Below, one piece after another: positions 2,792 through 26,710 of a stretch of 64,000 bases of DNA. This DNA is from Microvirga aerophila. Its GTDB lineage: Bacteria; Pseudomonadota; Alphaproteobacteria; Rhizobiales; Beijerinckiaceae. Each line of letters opens with the position of its first letter. Within the stretch, counting starts at the first letter, position 1. Location of the stretch: NCBI RefSeq assembly GCF_003332305.1, contig NZ_QOIO01000006.1, forward strand, positions 1 to 64,000, in the 5' to 3' direction. Both the position numbers and the translations under genes were made by a program. Below the pieces are notes generated by a model. The model did not search any database. It saw only the letters and a program-made list of their open reading frames with translations, and had not been told where the DNA came from.

Positions 2792-4600
2792 ATGGCTGAG
2801 AGGCTTCAACGTCGCACGCCCGATCAGCTGCGCTCCCGGCTTTGGTTCGACAATCCGGACAATCCGGGCATGACAGCCCTGTATCTTGAGCGCTACCTCA
2901 ACTTCGGCCTGACCGGCAAAGAACTCCAGGGCAAGAAGCCGATCATCGGCATAGCGCAGACAGGCTCCGATCTGTCGCCCTGCAACAGGCATCATATCGA
3001 ACTCGCCAAGCGTGTCCGCGACGGCATCACGGCCGCTGGAGGCGTCGCTTTCGAGTTCCCGTGCCATCCGATTCAGGAAACCGGCAAGCGGCCCACCGCC
3101 AGCCTCGATCGCAACTTGGCCTATCTGTCCCTGGTGGAAGTGCTCTACGGCTATCCCCTGGATGGCGTCGTTCTGATGACCGGCTGCGACAAGACCATGC
3201 CGGCCTGCCTCATGGCGGCCGCGACCGTGAACATTCCGGCGATCTCGCTCAATGTCGGTCCTATGCTCAACGGCTGGCACCATGGCGAACGCACCGGCTC
3301 GGGCACCGTCGTCTGGAAAGCCCGCGAGCGCCATGCGGCCGGCGATATCGACTATCAGCAGTTCATGGACATCGTCGGATCGAGCGCGCCGTCCGTCGGT
3401 CACTGCAACACCATGGGCACCGCCTCGACCATGAATGCGCTCGCCGAAGCCCTAGGCATGGCGCTTCCGGGATCGGCCGCCATTCCGGCTCCCTATCGCG
3501 AGCGCGGGCAAGCCGCCTATGAAACCGGCAAACGCATCGTCGAGATGGTGTGGGAGGATCTGAAGCCGTCCGACATCATGACCCGCGAAGCCTTCGAGAA
3601 CGCGATCGTCGCCAATGCGGCCATCGGCGGCTCCACCAACGCGCCCATCCACATCAACGCCATCGCCAAGCATATCGGCGTTCAGCTCGACAACGACGAT
3701 TGGGAGCGCTTCGGTCTCGACATTCCTCTGCTGGTGAACGTCCAGCCCGCAGGTGAATACCTCGGTGAGGAATACTTCCGGGCCGGCGGCTTGCCGGCCG
3801 TGTTGGCCGAATTGATCGGCGCCGGCAAGATCAACGAGGATGCGATCACCTGCACTGGCGCCACCATCGGCGAGAACAGCAGGGGCAAGTTCAGCTGGGA
3901 CCGGGACGTGATCCGCTCCTATGACAATCCGCTGAAGGAGAAGGCGGGTTTCCTGAATCTCAAAGGCACTCTGTTCGAATCGGCGATCATGAAGACCAGC
4001 GTGATCAGCGAGGAGTTCCGCGACCGGTACCTGTCCAATCCCGATGATCCGAACGCCTTCGAGGGCCGCGTCGTCGTGTTCGACGGGCCGGAGGACTACC
4101 ATCATCGCCTCGATGATCCGGCGCTCGACATCGATGAGCACACGATCCTGATCATGCGCGGAGCCGGCCCTATCGGCTATCCGGGTGCGGCTGAGGTGGT
4201 GAACATGCAACCGCCTGCGGCGCTCATCAAAAGAGGCGTTCTGTCCTTGCCGTGCATCGGGGACGGCCGCCAGTCGGGCACGTCCGCCACGCCGTCGATC
4301 CTCAATGCCTCGCCAGAGGCGGCAGTCGGAGGTGGGCTCGCGCTGCTGCAGACGGGCGACCGCATCCGTATCGATCTCAACCAGCGTCGTGCGGACATCC
4401 TGCTCTCCGATGAGGAACTGCAGCGGCGTCGTTCCGATCTGAACGCCAAGGGCGGCTATCCTTATCCTGCAAGCCAGACGCCGTGGCAGGAAATTCAGCG
4501 CGCCATGGTGGACCAACTCGCGGACGGCATGACCTTGAGACCTGCGGTGAAATTCCAGAAGGTTGCGCAAACCTTCGGAGTGCCCCGGGACAATCACTAG
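2792..4600 (+). CDS. IlvD/Edd-family sugar-acid dehydratase
   Basis: A 602-residue iron-sulfur dehydratase of the IlvD/Edd family. Three family cysteines that ligate the Fe-S cluster are visible: Cys64 (LSPCNRHH), Cys132 ([10 protein letters not shown]) and Cys205 (SVGHCNTMG). Overall it looks more like pentonate/hexonate dehydratases (arabinonate, xylonate, galactonate type) than true dihydroxy-acid dehydratase, and the SDR gene 36 bases downstream supports a sugar-acid catabolic role. The exact substrate cannot be read from sequence. I chose the ATG at 2792 over an in-frame TTG at 2774 because AAAGGA lies nine bases before the ATG. Confidence 0.85.
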
Positions 4601-4636
4601 ATCAACCTCCACGACAACCCTCATGCGGGACGCACC

Positions 4637-5383
4637 ATGACTGATCGGCTGAAAGGTAAGAAGGCCCTCGTGACCGCCGCAGGGCAGGGGATCGGACGCG
4701 CCATCGCGGACGCTTTTATCCGCGAGGGCGCAAAGGTCTTCGCCACTGATCTCGATGTCGAGAAGCTTCGTGATCTCGCGGGGGCTGAGCACCGTGCGCT
4801 CGACGTGCTCTCAGGCCAGGCCGTCAGTGAGCTCCTCGCGCAGACGGGTCCGATCGACGTGCTCGTGAACGCTGCCGGCTTCGTGCATCACGGCACCGTC
4901 CTGGATTGCTCCGACAAGGATTGGGACTTCTCGTTCGACCTGAACGTGAAATCCATGCATCGGACGATCCAGGCCGTGTTGCCGGGCATGCTCGGCAAAG
5001 GCGGCGGATCGATCGTCAACATCGCGTCGGGAGCTTCGTCCGTGCGCGGCATCCCGAACCGCTATGTCTACGGCGCCACGAAGGCCGCGGTGATCGGCCT
5101 CACCAAAGCAGTCGCGGCTGACTTCATCAAACAGGGCGTACGCGCCAACGCCATCTGTCCCGGCACCATCCAGTCGCCGTCGCTCGATGAGCGCATCCGC
5201 TCTCAGGCGGAAAGTTCGGGGCAGAGTCTTGATGTGGTGCGGCAGGCCTTCATCGACCGGCAGCCCATGGGGCGGCTCGGTACCCCTGAGGAGGTGGCGT
5301 GGCTTGCGGTCTATCTTGCGTCGGACGAGTCAAGCTACACGACGGGACATGTCCACTTGGTGGATGGCGGCTTCGCTCTCTAG
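4637..5383 (+). CDS. SDR-family dehydrogenase (sugar/hydroxy-acid type)
   Basis: A 248-residue short-chain dehydrogenase. It has the dinucleotide-binding AAGQGIG loop (about 14-20), NAA at 78-80, a catalytic serine near 131-134 (NIASGAS) and the Tyr145-x3-Lys149 pair. The C-terminal YTTGHVHLVDGGFAL is typical of classical SDRs. The family resemblance is to DHRS6/BDH2 and bacterial 2-keto-3-deoxy-L-fuconate dehydrogenases. Placed after an IlvD/Edd dehydratase, it probably oxidises the 2-keto-3-deoxy sugar acid that enzyme makes. That pathway is inferred from the pair, not shown. Confidence 0.82.
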   Translation: MTDRLKGKKALVTAAGQGIGRAIADAFIREGAKVFATDLDVEKLRDLAGAEHRALDVLSGQAVSELLAQTGPIDVLVNAAGFVHHGTVLDCSDKDWDFSFDLNVKSMHRTIQAVLPGMLGKGGGSIVNIASGASSVRGIPNRYVYGATKAAVIGLTKAVAADFIKQGVRANAICPGTIQSPSLDERIRSQAESSGQSLDVVRQAFIDRQPMGRLGTPEEVAWLAVYLASDESSYTTGHVHLVDGGFAL

Positions 5384-5468
5384 CTCAGCTCGCCGGAGCC
5401 TAATTTCGGGCTGCGATTGAACGGTGCTGATCCTGCTGGACTCGGGCAGGAACCATTACTCCGGGGAT

Positions 5469-5777
5469 CTAGGTGGCTGACCGGGCTTCCTCCGCCCGGG
5501 CCCGCTCTGCCCTGTCGAGCCATTGAACGACATTTTCATCACGCCAGTTGATCCTCAAAGCCCGGCCAAAGTCGCTGATGGCCTTATCGTACTCACCGAG
5601 GTGATACATGGTTATGCCACGACAAAGGTAGAATTGAGCGTCGTAGTCATTCTCACGGCAGGATTCTGGGGCTGAAAAAGTGTGGTCATCGCCCTGCTTC
5701 CCGTAGATGAATTTGAGAATGTAGGGAAGTCTGAACTGACTATTGCTAATAAGGGCGATGACCACGTTCAACTCCAA
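5469..5777 (-). CDS. Short TPR-repeat protein or fragment
   Basis: A 102-residue frame. Only the second half (about 45-95) is recognisable: a tetratricopeptide-type pair of helices (YLCRGITMYHLGEYDKAISDFGRAL). The first 45 residues resemble nothing and have lower GC than the neighbours. This could be the remnant of a longer TPR gene or an acquired fragment. No good ribosome binding site was seen, so both the start and gene status are uncertain. Confidence 0.35.
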   Translation of the reverse strand: MELNVVIALISNSQFRLPYILKFIYGKQGDDHTFSAPESCRENDYDAQFYLCRGITMYHLGEYDKAISDFGRALRINWRDENVVQWLDRAERARAEEARSAT

Positions 5778-21282: not shown

Positions 21283-22290
21283 CTAGGTTGGAAGGGTCAG
21301 GATGCCGCCCTGTCCATCCGCGCAGCCGAAGGCGAGGCGTCGGCCAGCCTTGTCCCAGGCCATGGCCGTGACGCCGCTATCCTGCACGGCCGGGCGCACG
21401 AGCAGCTCGGACGCATCGTTCAGGCGGATGAGCAGGATGCAGCCATCCTCGTAGCCGACGGCCAGCACATAAGTGTTCGGATGAAAAGCGACGCGGCTGA
21501 CCTTGGCGTGACGCACGCCGCATTCCCGCGGCTGCTTGCCCATGGGGCCTTCCTTCGATTCGAAGGGCCACACGATGGCGGCCTCCGCCCCGGAGGTGGC
21601 GAGCCATTTGCCGTCGCCGGACCAGGAGAGCGAGCGCGTCTTCGACGGGTAGCCGCTCATGCGCATGTGTCCCTTGTCGGGGATCAGGCGCCAGCCGTGA
21701 AGGGCATTCTCCTGCATGGAGGTCACCACGAATCGCGCGTCAGGCGACCAGGTGATGTCGAGGTGGGACCCCTTCCATTCCAACACCTCGGGCTTGGCCT
21801 CGACGTTGGGGAACCACAGGGTTGCGCCGTTATAGTGCGAAATCGCGAGCCGGTATCCCTTGGGCGCGAAGGAGAGGCCGCGGGCCGTGGTGGGCACCTC
21901 AAGGGTCTTCTCCCGTCCCCGGTCGTCATGGGCGATGACGCGCTTGCCGGCCCCGTAGGCGAAAGCGCCGCCCGAGCTGATCGCCAGCGAGTCGATCCAG
22001 GCGCCCTTGGTTTGCGCCAGCGTCTTCGTGGAGCCGTCCTGGCCGGTCACGGCGACGCGGCCGTCATCGCCGCCCGTGACGAAGCGCTCGCCGTCGCTGG
22101 CCGCCACCAGAATGCCCGCATCCGGATGCGCCTCGACCCGGTGCGTCTCCGCATCCTTTGCCAGCAGGACGCCGCCGTCGGTCAAGCCGAACGCGACGGT
22201 GCCTTTGAGCCAGCCGACGGCCGTGACATGCGCCCCGGCATTCACCGGGACGACGCTTTGGGTCAGAGACGGAGCAGTTCCAGCAGTCAT
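21283..22290 (-). CDS. WD40-repeat protein of the zinc operon
   Basis: A 335-residue protein that reads as about seven WD-type blades. Recurring ends include LDITWSPDARFVVTSM, LSWSGDGKWLATSG, VAFHPNTYVLAVGYEDG and MAWDKAGRRLAFGCADG. There is no signal peptide, so it should be a cytoplasmic scaffold. Its place between a CobW-type metallochaperone module and two small Cys proteins suggests a protein-interaction role in zinc handling, which is inference. Confidence 0.82.
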   Translation of the reverse strand: MTAGTAPSLTQSVVPVNAGAHVTAVGWLKGTVAFGLTDGGVLLAKDAETHRVEAHPDAGILVAASDGERFVTGGDDGRVAVTGQDGSTKTLAQTKGAWIDSLAISSGGAFAYGAGKRVIAHDDRGREKTLEVPTTARGLSFAPKGYRLAISHYNGATLWFPNVEAKPEVLEWKGSHLDITWSPDARFVVTSMQENALHGWRLIPDKGHMRMSGYPSKTRSLSWSGDGKWLATSGAEAAIVWPFESKEGPMGKQPRECGVRHAKVSRVAFHPNTYVLAVGYEDGCILLIRLNDASELLVRPAVQDSGVTAMAWDKAGRRLAFGCADGQGGILTLPT

Positions 22291-22326: not shown

Positions 22327-22785
22327 CTAATGATCATGACAGATAGGACACCCATATTGCGATGTGTAAATTTCATGAATGGGACAGGTGGCGATCACTG
22401 GGTCATTCCCGCCTATCGAACCTTCCTCAATCGCACGAGTGTGCTCAAGCCGAAATTCCTGGAGCATAAGGCAGAAGTGATCGAGCCGGCGTATGATCAA
22501 CTCGTCAGGCGGCGTGTAGTCGAGCCGCTCCCAGCCGGTTTTCGTCATGGCAAGCCGTACCGCCGAGAGCATGAAATCTTCATCGGCTGCTATCGTTTCG
22601 GCTTTCCACGGCATGTCGGCGATGTCGAACCCCGCAAAACCGTGGCCGAGGATGGCCTGATCTTGTGACGCGATCCAAGCCGCGAACTCTTTATGGCGTC
22701 TTGTCTCGGCCGCCAGGGAGGACGCAATGGACAGGACAGAGACAAAAACCGACATAAGGCCATTGCTCATCCTTATAGGGTCCAT
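22327..22785 (-). CDS. Protein with C-terminal Cys/His metal-site-like tail
   Basis: A protein of about 152 residues of unknown function. The last 19 residues read CPIHEIYTSQYGCPICHDH, a CxxH...CxxCHxH cluster that looks like a zinc site. The N-terminus (MSVFVSVLSIASSLA) is hydrophobic and may be a signal or anchor. The start is uncertain: ATG at 22785 is used here, a GTG at 22821 and ATGs at 22770 and 22755 are alternatives. It lies between cobW and the WD40 gene in the zinc operon. Confidence 0.6.
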   Translation of the reverse strand: MDPIRMSNGLMSVFVSVLSIASSLAAETRRHKEFAAWIASQDQAILGHGFAGFDIADMPWKAETIAADEDFMLSAVRLAMTKTGWERLDYTPPDELIIRRLDHFCLMLQEFRLEHTRAIEEGSIGGNDPVIATCPIHEIYTSQYGCPICHDH

Positions 22786-22860
22786 ATCCGGACGAGCGCC
22801 GTATGTTATTTGGTTAGCCACTGTCCTGTCGAACAGGTCACGTCCGGGCGCTGCGCCGCC

Positions 22861-23823
22861 TCAAGCCGCGCAGGCCAGAAACCCTTCGCGGATGGCCTTC
22901 TCGTTCAGGTCGCGGCCGATGAACACCACCTTGGAGTCCCGCTTCTCGCCGGGCTTCCAATCACTCTGCACGTCGCCATCGAGGATCATGTGCACGCCCT
23001 GGAAAACGAAGCGCTTCGGCTCGTTCGGAAAGGCCACGATGCCCTTGCAGCGCAGGATGTTGGGGCCCTCGACCTGCGTGAGGTTCGAGATCCACGGCAT
23101 GAACTTCTCGGGATCCACTTCGCCGTCGATCTTCATCGACACGGACTGCATGTCCTCGTCGTGATGGTGATGGTGGCCTTCCTCGAGGAAGTCGGGCTCG
23201 AGCTCGATGATGCGGTCGAGATCGAAGGCCTTGCGGTCGAGGACTTCATCGATCGGGATGGCGCAGTTCTGCGTCCGGTGGACTTTGGCATAGGGGTTGA
23301 TGGCGCGGATGCGAGCTTCGACCTCGTCGAGCTCCTGCGGGCTCACGAGATCGATCTTGTTGAGGATGATCACGTCCGCGAAGGCGATCTGGTTCTTGGC
23401 CTCCGGCGCGTCCTTCAGGCGGTCCGAGAGCCACTTGGCGTCGGCCACCGTCACCACCGCGTCGAGTCGCGCGGTGTCGGACACGTCCTGGTCCATGAAG
23501 AAGGTCTGGGCCACCGGCGCGGGGTCGGCGAGGCCGGTGGTCTCGACGATGATGGCGTCGAACTTGCCCTTGCGCTTCATGAGCCCGTCGAGGATGCGGA
23601 TCAGGTCGCCGCGCACGGTGCAGCAGATGCAGCCGTTGTTCATCTCGAACACTTCCTCGTCGGCGCCGACCACGAGTTCGTTGTCGATGCCGATCTCGCC
23701 GAACTCGTTGACGATCACGGCGTATTTCTTGCCGTGCTGCTCCGTGAGGATCCGATTGAGGAGCGTGGTCTTTCCGGCGCCGAGATAGCCGGTGAGAACG
23801 GTAACTGGAAGCTTATCGGACAT
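22861..23823 (-). CDS. CobW/COG0523-family GTP-binding zinc chaperone
   Basis: A 320-residue G3E-family P-loop GTPase. Walker A is GYLGAGKTT (12-20), the CxCC metal site is Cys65-Ile-Cys67-Cys68, NKID is at about 155-158, and a pentahistidine run at 217-221 follows a glycine. The C-terminal CobW domain ends the protein. These proteins insert or deliver metals, and Zur-controlled members serve zinc. It sits 60 bases after znuA, which supports zinc here rather than cobalamin. The ATG at 23823 has GGA about nine bases upstream. Confidence 0.92.
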   Translation of the reverse strand: MSDKLPVTVLTGYLGAGKTTLLNRILTEQHGKKYAVIVNEFGEIGIDNELVVGADEEVFEMNNGCICCTVRGDLIRILDGLMKRKGKFDAIIVETTGLADPAPVAQTFFMDQDVSDTARLDAVVTVADAKWLSDRLKDAPEAKNQIAFADVIILNKIDLVSPQELDEVEARIRAINPYAKVHRTQNCAIPIDEVLDRKAFDLDRIIELEPDFLEEGHHHHHDEDMQSVSMKIDGEVDPEKFMPWISNLTQVEGPNILRCKGIVAFPNEPKRFVFQGVHMILDGDVQSDWKPGEKRDSKVVFIGRDLNEKAIREGFLACAA

Positions 23824-23883
23824 GGGATATTCCAAGGGCACGTTGGACGAAGGACCATCCCCATCGGGGAGGCGGAAACCTGG

Positions 23884-24832: not shown

Positions 24833-25699
24833 TCAGGCTTCGAGATGCTTGCCGGGCCATGCGAGCCACAGCAGGCCGCCTTCGCGGCCGAGGATGAGCG
24901 AGCCCACGTAGACGATGCCCGCGGACAGGATGATGGCCGGTCCTGCCGGGAGTTCGGCGTGGAAGGACAGAAGCAGGCCGCTGATGCCTGAAACGATCCC
25001 GATCAGGACCGACAGGATCATCATCATGGTGATATCGCTGCTCCAAAACCGGGCTGCAGCAGCCGGCAGCATCATCATGCCGACGGCCAGAAGCGTGCCC
25101 AGGGCATGGAAACCGCCCACGAGGTTGAGGACGACGAGGCCGAGGAAAATGAGGTGGGTGGGCGTCCCGGCGCGGCTGACCGAGCGCAGGAAGGTGGGAT
25201 CGACGCATTCGAGCACCAGGGGACGATAGAGCACCGCCAGAGCCAGGAACGTCACGGTCGAGATGGAGGCGAGCAGCAGCAGGGCGTTGTCGTCGAGCGC
25301 CAGCACGGTGCCGAAGAGCACGTGCAGCAGGTCCACGTTGGAGCCGCGCAGGGACACGATGGTGACGCCGAGCGCCAGGGACAGGAGGTAGAAGGCCGCA
25401 AGCGACGCATCCTCCTTCAGGGACGTGAAGCGGGACACGAGACCCGCCGCAACCGCCACGATCACGCCCGCGAACAGGCCGCCAACGGTCAGAGCCGGCA
25501 GCGAAAGCCCGGCGAACAGGTAGCCGATGGCGGCGCCTGGCAGGATGGCGTGCGCCATGGCGTCCCCGGTCAGGCTCATGCGCCGGAGCATCAGGAAGAC
25601 CCCGATGGGACCGCCGCCCAGCGCGATGGCGATGACGCCCACAACGGCGCGCTGCATGAATTCGAATTCGCCGAAGGGGCTGTAGAACAGCTCAAGCAT
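24833..25699 (-). CDS. znuB: Zinc ABC transporter permease
   Basis: A 288-residue permease of the ABC-3 family with about eight membrane segments and the typical LRRMSLTGDAMAHAILPGAAIGYL coupling region near the start. I start it at the ATG at 25699 (MLELFYSPFGEFEFMQRA, typical of ZnuB). A longer frame to 25744 would overlap znuC. It forms the membrane channel of the zinc importer. Confidence 0.9.
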   Translation of the reverse strand: MLELFYSPFGEFEFMQRAVVGVIAIALGGGPIGVFLMLRRMSLTGDAMAHAILPGAAIGYLFAGLSLPALTVGGLFAGVIVAVAAGLVSRFTSLKEDASLAAFYLLSLALGVTIVSLRGSNVDLLHVLFGTVLALDDNALLLLASISTVTFLALAVLYRPLVLECVDPTFLRSVSRAGTPTHLIFLGLVVLNLVGGFHALGTLLAVGMMMLPAAAARFWSSDITMMMILSVLIGIVSGISGLLLSFHAELPAGPAIILSAGIVYVGSLILGREGGLLWLAWPGKHLEA

Positions 25700-25722
25700 G
25701 GGGCTCACAATGTCTTGGCGCG

Positions 25723-26469
25723 TCACGCCGCGCCGCGATAGCACGCGCTGGCGTGAGGATCGTAGGCCTCCACCATGCGGCGGGCCTTCAAGAGGTTCTC
25801 GGCGCTGAGCACGCCGCTCGTTTCGCCCCAGGCCACCGGCTCGCGGGCGATGAGCAGGGTCTGCGGGAAGACGCGCTTGACGAGGTCGAGATCGTGCAGG
25901 ACAGCCACCACCGTGCGGTCCTCCGCATGCCAGCGGCGCACCACGTCGAGGAGGTCGGCGGTGGTCTTGGCGTCAATGGCCGTGAAGGGCTCGTCCAGCA
26001 GGATCACGGGAGAATCCTGGAGCAGGAGGCGCGCGAAGAGCGCGCGCTGCATCTGGCCACCGGACAGGGTCGAGATGGAGCGACGCTCGAAGCCGATGAG
26101 CCCAACGGCCGCCAGCGCCTGCTCGATCCGGGTTCGGTCCTTGCGGCTGACGCTGCCGAAGAGGCCCGACCGGGACCACAGCCCCATGGCGACGAGATCA
26201 TAGACCGAGAGCGGAAAGGAACGGTCGATTTCCGCGGCCTGCGGAAGGTACGCGATGGCTGCGTTGGCCGCGCCGCCGAGACGGATCTGCCCCTCGAGGG
26301 GGCGCAGGGTTCCGACGATGCCCTTGAGAAGGGTCGACTTGCCGGCCCCGTTCGGCCCGACCACGGCGGTCAGGCTGCCGGCGGCGATCTCGCCGTCCAG
26401 ATGGTGCACGGCCGGCCGGCGGCCATAGCCGAGGGTCACCTCGTCGAAGCGAATGGCGGTCGTGGTCAT
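25723..26469 (-). CDS. znuC: Zinc ABC transporter ATP-binding protein
   Basis: A 248-residue ATPase. Walker A GPNGAGKST is at 38-46, the signature LSGGQMQRALFARLL is in the middle, and Walker B VILLDEPFTAID follows. The ATG at 26469 forms an ATGA overlap with the stop of a 50-codon His-rich gene, which decides the start and implies translational coupling. An in-frame GTG nine codons upstream is therefore unlikely. Confidence 0.92.
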   Translation of the reverse strand: MTTTAIRFDEVTLGYGRRPAVHHLDGEIAAGSLTAVVGPNGAGKSTLLKGIVGTLRPLEGQIRLGGAANAAIAYLPQAAEIDRSFPLSVYDLVAMGLWSRSGLFGSVSRKDRTRIEQALAAVGLIGFERRSISTLSGGQMQRALFARLLLQDSPVILLDEPFTAIDAKTTADLLDVVRRWHAEDRTVVAVLHDLDLVKRVFPQTLLIAREPVAWGETSGVLSAENLLKARRMVEAYDPHASACYRGAA

Positions 26470-26618
26470 GCGAGAACCAAGAAAACGAGAAGCCAAAGAA
26501 CACCCAGGACAACGCCCGCCCCGGCAATGCGCTCCCAGGCCGACAGGCGCAGGAGCGAGAAGGACGGGGTGGATGCGATCGCCCGAGCCGGGTGGTGATG
26601 GTGGTGATCACGGTGCAT
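26466..26618 (-). CDS. 50-residue His-rich membrane peptide upstream of znuC
   Basis: A short frame of 50 codons that is easy to miss. It begins MHRDHHHHHPAR, with six histidines in the first nine residues, continues with a short polar part, and ends with one hydrophobic segment (about 31-50, GAGVVLGVLWLLVFLVLA) at the very C-terminus. The TGA overlaps the znuC ATG (ATGA), and the gene sits directly downstream of the Zur-like palindromes, so it is probably the first gene of the operon. It looks like a tail-anchored metal-binding peptide; the function is unknown. Confidence 0.68.
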   Translation of the reverse strand: MHRDHHHHHPARAIASTPSFSLLRLSAWERIAGAGVVLGVLWLLVFLVLA

Positions 26619-26624
26619 GGCATT

Positions 26625-26677
26625 CAGTATAATATACGCCCACCCGATGGCTAGGGGTTGGGGCGTATATTATACGC
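26625..26677 (-). promoter_or_regulatory. Paired Zur-box-like operators
   Basis: Two palindromes, GTATAATATAC (26627-26637) and GCGTATATTATACGC (26663-26677), are inverted copies of each other with a shared GTATAATATACGCCC core and lie about 25 bases apart. Both have the TATA-N-TATA centre found in alphaproteobacterial Zur boxes. They sit just upstream of the His-rich gene and znuCBA. Zur would block transcription when zinc is plentiful. The wider 23-base consensus is only partly matched. Confidence 0.62.
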
Positions 26678-26710
26678 ATTTTTTGATTGAATGCCGTTTG
26701 GAACGCAACC

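Follow-up and report, generated by a model that had tools for sequence, protein, structure and literature searches.

A short gene encoding a 50-residue protein precedes and overlaps the ATPase gene of a zinc ABC importer in Microvirga aerophila, and it belongs to a family of mini-proteins that is tied to one zinc-importer type in many Proteobacteria and is undescribed as far as our family and literature searches reach. Comparative sequence evidence leads us to put at roughly 70% the probability that the product is a tail-anchored mini-subunit of a ZniCBA-type (AztAB-related) zinc importer, its subunit role and its topology being proposed on that basis. A new small subunit at a zinc importer had been suggested in the initial annotation of this DNA; the gene, its context and the family bear the suggestion out, and the family proves wider than had been supposed, while physical membership of the importer is the part that we infer. 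Throughout, the window is the whole stretch of DNA analysed, 64,000 nucleotides in length (contig NZ_QOIO01000006.1, positions 1 to 64,000).

The ORF occupies 26618..26466 of the window on the minus strand, with its ATG at 26618, and its product is MHRDHHHHHPARAIASTPSFSLLRLSAWERIAGAGVVLGVLWLLVFLVLA; a plus-strand reading of 26466-26618 is unrelated to this peptide. What the initial annotation described is all present, on a strand that it left unstated: a frame of 50 residues with a DHHHHHP run and a hydrophobic helix at its C-terminus, and an ATGA overlap, in which the TGA stop overlaps the ATPase ATG by 4 nt (26469-26466). In a peptide search of 101 genomes, matches were found at E <= 0.0015 in 48 of 48 genomes of the genus Microvirga (the ORF's own included) and at E <= 0.01 in 5 of 53 genomes outside it. 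We read 30 Microvirga loci, one being the ORF's own and 29 drawn from the 47 other Microvirga genomes, and the ORF is intact and directly upstream of the ATPase gene in all 30. The substitution pattern is likewise that expected of coding sequence: across 38 aligned codons the in-frame pN/pS is 0.34, compared to 1.14 and 2.13 in the other sense frames, and third codon positions are the most variable. The in-frame value reflects purifying selection. The antisense frames give 1.34, 0.47 and 2.07, the value of 0.47 being taken to mirror the sense codon register. All 30 ORFs carry between 3 and 20 His residues, for which both CAC and CAT codons are in use. A search for plasmid copies of the peptide returned no match at E <= 1. 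A chance ORF is ruled out by the selection pattern, the genomic context and the distribution, and the Microvirga ORF is a real gene. The description "unannotated" does not hold for the family as a whole, since the Skermanella mucosa and Comamonas antarctica equivalents bear the annotation "hypothetical protein".

Table 1. Features of the zinc operon and of its upstream region, in window coordinates
Feature	Position	Strand	Basis
WD40-repeat protein, often last gene of CobW-bearing clusters	21283..22290	-	family search, relatives
CobW/COG0523 GTPase, GHHHHHDED tract	22861..23841	-	family search, sequence
Zinc solute-binding protein (ZnuA-type), short His-rich loop	23884..24804	-	AztC 339.8 bits, below cut-off 350
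Zinc ABC permease, AztB/ZniB type	24833..25702	-	NF040871 AztB, 280.9 bits, cut-off 280
Zinc ABC ATPase, AztA/ZniC type	25723..26469	-	NF040873 AztA, 233.9 bits, cut-off 220
Candidate mini-subunit ORF, 50 aa, first gene of zinc operon	26466..26618	-	conservation, pN/pS, context
Single C-terminal transmembrane helix, codons 31-50, invariant Trp = residue 42	26469..26528	-	alignments, AlphaFold2
Conserved juxtamembrane motif PSFSLLRLSAWER, codons 18-30, invariant Arg = residue 30	26529..26567	-	alignments
His-rich tail, codons 2-9 (HRDHHHHH), predicted disordered, probably cytoplasmic	26592..26615	-	AlphaFold2, charge rule
Proximal Zur-like box GTATAATATACGC, 13 nt	26627-26639	not assigned	pattern search
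Distal Zur-like box GTATATTATACGC, 13 nt, inverted copy	26665-26677	not assigned	pattern search

The gene overlapped by the ORF had been named znuC, and it does encode a zinc ABC ATPase, of the AztA/ZniC type (NF040873) rather than canonical ZnuC. The operon shares the ATPase-permease-binding protein gene order reported in the available sections on ZniCBA of Klebsiella and Rhizobium, and its products are 53% (permease), 42-46% (ATPase) and 44% (binding protein) identical to those of the Klebsiella zni genes; by gene order and homology to the Klebsiella genes it is of ZniCBA type. The His tail, the CobW gene and the WD40 gene are Microvirga additions to that arrangement. Three genes are described, and zinc-responsive expression is reported, in the available sections of the ZniCBA papers (PMC10797113, PMC12183173); the "ZniCBA" of PMC11647595 is, to judge from its available sections, an unrelated efflux system. 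Compared to AztABCD of Paracoccus, the Microvirga ATPase and permease pass the NCBIfam cut-offs for AztA and AztB, the permease barely, whereas the binding protein fails that for AztC. The AztD model was not among the matches listed at E <= 1e-10 for the six operon proteins scanned (for the ATPase, the best 25 of 156). The permease is the single ABC-3 match found in this genome.

Clusters that join COG0523 subfamily 5 genes with WD40 genes and znuABC, several of them behind predicted Zur sites, were noted by Haas et al. 2009 (PMC2770081), the available sections of which describe no mini-subunit. Among the loci compared here, the WD40 protein is common in CobW-bearing zinc operons and is encoded on the opposite strand in four of them (L046, L049, L061, L194). 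Between the CobW and WD40 genes of the window lies a 164-aa ORF (22327-22821, minus strand) that ends in CPIHEIYTSQYGCPICHDH and has no Pfam match; tblastn at E <= 1 gave no match to it in 15 related loci, of which ten bear the label Microvirga.

The part of the protein that defines the family is its C-terminal half. An alignment of 23 Microvirga sequences has S-L-L-R-L-S, Arg30 and Trp42 among its invariant columns, and in 49 cores drawn from many families Arg30 and Trp42, 12 residues apart, are the sole invariant residues. A core profile of 36 columns, A2, was built from these 49 members with the window ORF as its first row, and the window's score against it (44.1 bits, E 1.5e-10) is therefore partly by construction; the pairing of an A2 match with an Arg and a Trp 12 apart is found in the window ORF and equally in 20 hits from outside the training set. 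AlphaFold2 predicts one helix for the window peptide, spanning residues 20-49, with a pLDDT of 96-97 over the last 20 residues, and assigns the tail low confidence (pLDDT 59-63). When tested, conservation of one face of the helix fell short of significance (p about 0.20, or 0.12 without Trp). No meaningful match to the mini-ORF or the cores was found in Pfam, NCBIfam or the PDB sequences: the window peptide has 0 Pfam matches at E <= 1, the 49 cores match 9 Pfam families at E <= 0.5 (best 0.0031) with one or two members each, and the SecE model (NF006910) scores 18.1 bits, below its cut-off of 96. Nor does any of the full-text matches listed, a set whose scope leaves subscription papers outside, deal with a mini-subunit of zinc ABC importers.

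An initial profile built on Microvirga matched 55 of 397 genomes of the order at E <= 0.01 and 9 of 289 genomes of the class, and in 34 of the 37 loci returned by these searches the core lies upstream of the ATPase gene; the matches in L066-L068, loci with no ATPase, are rejected as chance hits. A permease orthologue is present at E <= 1e-40 in 185 of the 397 genomes of the order. From these we hand-picked 60 loci for spread over genera, six of which (G386, G161, G305, G313, G435, G058) already had a well-placed match to the initial profile, and 49 of the 60 have a tail-anchored mini-ORF directly before the ATPase gene, as recognised by a hydrophobicity criterion, not by profile, and with no shuffled control. 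The A2 profile matched 59 of 270 genomes of the class at E <= 0.02 and 50 of 249 genomes of the phylum at E <= 0.01. When it was searched genome-wide with no use of context, the core was found directly upstream of the ATPase gene in 45 of the 46 loci returned, to which the context check refers (the window's own locus not counted, some loci coming from training families); the sole exception, L137, is cut by a contig end. All 20 of the further phylum matches outside the class, none of which is in the training set, lie directly upstream of the ATPase gene, so that together with five of the 45 the core is in place in 25 of 25 genomes outside the class with an A2 match in the phylum search. On named loci, A2 finds the mini-ORF in 78 of 80.

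Taking all loci with an ATPase (60 of the order, 80 named and 20 of the phylum), the mini-ORF is present in 147 of 160, and two of the 13 loci without it (L190, L251) are at contig ends. With ATPase starts extrapolated from alignment to the window's ATPase, the stop of the mini-ORF falls within -56 to +16 nt of the estimated ATPase start in all 147 cases; in a separate set of loci, those returned by the profile searches, the offsets run from -207 to +16 nt. The window ORF has the same placement, directly upstream of an AztA/ZniC-type ATPase gene.

Absence of the mini-ORF is concentrated in one part of the permease tree. In this quick tree of 127 rows (no mixture model, unrooted, 44 open forks), 13 of the 16 rows without a mini-ORF fall on one side of a branch with an SH-aLRT of 93, a value that did not earn a star, and the rows outside that clade are L103, L190 and L284. 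Three loci with empty extractions (L114, L126, L186) were dropped from the tree and every third of the named loci L199-L256 was included; L277 and L280-L282 were labelled by hand, and L190 was labelled absent though it is cut by a contig end. The mini-subunit is absent from the AztABC(D)-type permease clade (L085, L088, L093, L278, L279, L283 and relatives), and no core match was found in the three aztABC operons examined, L278, L279 and L283. Of these, L279 (Paracoccus versutus) and L283 (Klebsiella plasmid pBio30) bear AztD, and L278 is the Phyllobacterium aztABC operon, where no AztD was seen in the stretch examined. Since the 13-row clade and L103 do without it, the mini-subunit is not universally required. 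It was probably lost in the AztABC(D) clade, which, the tree being unrooted, is the simplest reading and not a proof.

Two named members and one fusion deserve individual mention. In the Klebsiella zniCBA locus (L277, frame 1700-1816), a 35-residue member, MFTSIFMASGAVRAAIAGVLLAALWLATWWAVTLP, scores 27.1 bits and ends at about the zniC start; it is located between mltB and pncC, behind TGTTATGTTATAACA. In a zinc-type ABC locus of Neisseria gonorrhoeae (L289, frame 1511-1732), the 34-residue MTPSLLLSGLTFRLFLALIAVFLLWGVYLWAVSV ends at about the start of the homologous ATPase; its score (15.0 bits, E 0.008) is weak alone, it is in the right place, and the record carries no annotation there. A Bradyrhizobium plasmid operon (L284) has no stand-alone ORF, and the core is found instead at the N-terminus of its fourth gene (4299-5642), the open frame of which starts with MDVPQRSPFRGALLASARSRLTVAGAVVVSLWIAVLWAS (core match 18.6 bits, E 6.5e-4) and continues into an NxxGxxAF-repeat domain; the annotated start of this gene falls inside the transmembrane helix. 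Six near-identical plasmid records carry this type of fusion and, being near-identical, are counted as one event.

Upstream of the window ORF, the paired Zur-like boxes that had been reported are indeed there, as two 13-nt copies that form 15-nt inverted arms. In the interval 26619-26680 these operator-like copies have a spacing of 38 bp, the proximal copy lies 8 nt from the ATG, and no Shine-Dalgarno sequence is seen. In most other Microvirga loci a single extended palindrome, built around GCGTATAAAATACTATACGC, is found some 57 nt upstream, and at least 10 of 11 positions match GTATAATATAC in 29 of the 30 loci, L024 being the exception; L094 carries the window's variant box, GCGTATAATATACGC. 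The strict core GTATAWTATAC has no further match in the 6.0-Mb genome, so that a wider regulon with exactly this box is not supported; two strict patterns were tried in all, and neither gave another copy of the box. A 15-mer with at least 12 matches to TGTTATA[A/T]TATAACA, which we take to be the Zur consensus, occurs within 450 bases upstream in 99 of 146 loci with a mini-ORF and in 8 of 12 loci without one. By this comparison, the box is diverged in Microvirga. The boxes and the operon are consistent with Zur control, and the boxes may be regarded as putative operators. The ORF would then be the first gene of a Zur-type operon, and its stop/start overlap with the ATPase gene suggests translational coupling.

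The orientation of the protein in the membrane is suggested by the charges that flank its helix and by the one natural fusion. The positively charged flank of a membrane helix is, by the positive-inside rule, its cytoplasmic side. The N-side has the more positive net charge in 140 of 146 members and the less positive in none, with 6 ties, in a segment that holds the anchored invariant Arg, which favours such a result; the frames for this and for the helix-face test were anchored on R-x11-W, where Arg and Trp are 100% by construction, and one of the 146 frames lacks the full segment. The bias, taken with the rule, places the His tail in the cytoplasm, and an N-in/C-out topology is suggested. 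The fusion agrees with it if the repeat domain is extracytoplasmic, as the name "choice-of-anchor" suggests. His clusters are common in periplasmic zinc proteins, and the binding protein of this operon has a His loop of its own; one could on these grounds imagine the reverse orientation, with a periplasmic His tail that takes zinc from the binding protein. We hold that to be highly improbable, as not one of the members shows the reversed charge bias and the presumably extracytoplasmic repeat domain of the fusion sits C-terminal to the helix.

With the N-terminus in the cytoplasm, the product might also be a small regulator that acts on the importer as a zinc-sensing brake or stabiliser, binding it under certain conditions only, and whose tail would sense cytoplasmic zinc and inhibit import. 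The location behind a Zur-type box and the charge bias that puts the tail in the cytoplasm are in keeping with this, as are the size and the single helix, which fit the small transporter regulators MgtS, MntS and AcrZ (PMC10710835). The available sections of that source present these, along with LucB, as small membrane partners of transporters, LucB acting with an ABC lipid importer; the likeness is one of description, and none is described there with a zinc ABC importer. Such a regulator nevertheless seems unlikely to us, in that the tight and widespread linkage to the ATPase gene across classes looks like that of a standing subunit and many members have no His tail with which to sense. A leader or coupling peptide, for which the act of translation and not the product would matter, had been offered in the initial annotation, and the overlap of stop and start and the position as first gene behind operator-like boxes would suit it. 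It is disfavoured, and we give it very little credence: an in-frame pN/pS of 0.34 and an Arg and a Trp that are invariant in 49 diverse cores point to a selected product, with helix amino acids conserved across classes, and in one operon elsewhere the core lies inside a fusion protein. The placement of the stop in 147 of 147 loci (-56 to +16 nt) leaves no room for an attenuator in most loci, and Rfam gave no match at gathering scores; on this lack of space and of an Rfam match, a leader peptide or RNA element was rejected. A subunit role is the likeliest reading for the family.

The His run, whose conservation in related loci had been put forward as a check, varies widely, down to none, and it is the helix and its flanking motif that are conserved instead; absent from many members, the run is ruled out as the defining feature. 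Fewer than five His are found in 23 of the 49 members from the order sample, and three or fewer in 16 of 20 loci outside the class (counts being taken over the last 75 residues of open frames, which possibly include untranslated codons), and the smallest mini-subunits without a tail have 34-36 residues. Within the 60-locus sample, a co-oriented cobW accompanies 18 of 26 members with at least five His and 1 of 23 with fewer, and none of the 11 loci without a mini-ORF. The link between His tail and CobW is strong in this raw table (18/8 vs 1/22) and was rejected as independent of phylogeny: the permease tree calls for 13 changes of the His label and 7 of cobW, and of 5 or 8 independent pairs (starred branches) an average of 1.4 or 1.1 are concordant and the rest equal. 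The Skermanella and Gemmobacter operons have CobW and WD40 alongside a His-free mini-subunit, and L219 has CobW and no mini-subunit. The His content of the tail does not correlate with that of the binding protein (n = 58, named loci left out) or with that of CobW (n = 19, named loci left out). Given too few independent pairs, His-free CobW operons and no His correlation, a relay from tail to CobW is offered as a hypothesis. Where present, the His tail probably faces the cytoplasm and probably binds zinc that leaves the permease; zinc buffering by the tail, as had also been proposed, is possible, and a handoff to the CobW GTPase of the operon is no more than plausible.

Under the mini-subunit reading, the single helix, with Arg at the cytoplasmic border and Trp twelve residues on, would pack against the permease and may help to assemble, stabilise or tune the ATPase-permease complex, with the N-terminus in the cytoplasm and the C-terminal end at the periplasmic face. 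In Microvirga, as in many other Hyphomicrobiales, the disordered His-rich tail would probably bind zinc at the cytoplasmic exit and hand it over, perhaps to the CobW/ZNG1-type GTPase that the operon also encodes. A bolder proposal, which we regard as tentative and rather doubtful, is that an entire branch of the cluster A-I zinc ABC importers, found in Proteobacteria both harmless and pathogenic, has an unrecognised third membrane component needed for normal transport, and that in Hyphomicrobiales its cytoplasmic His tail takes zinc at the permease exit and loads a ZNG1-like CobW GTPase, forming a direct importer-to-chaperone zinc relay. Zinc import is central both to bacterial nutrition and to infection. 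If these importers do work with a tiny extra subunit, any reconstitution or structure that contains no more than ATPase, permease and binding protein would be missing a component. The His-tailed versions make testable the route of zinc, which is scarcely free in the cytoplasm, from the importer to its first acceptor.
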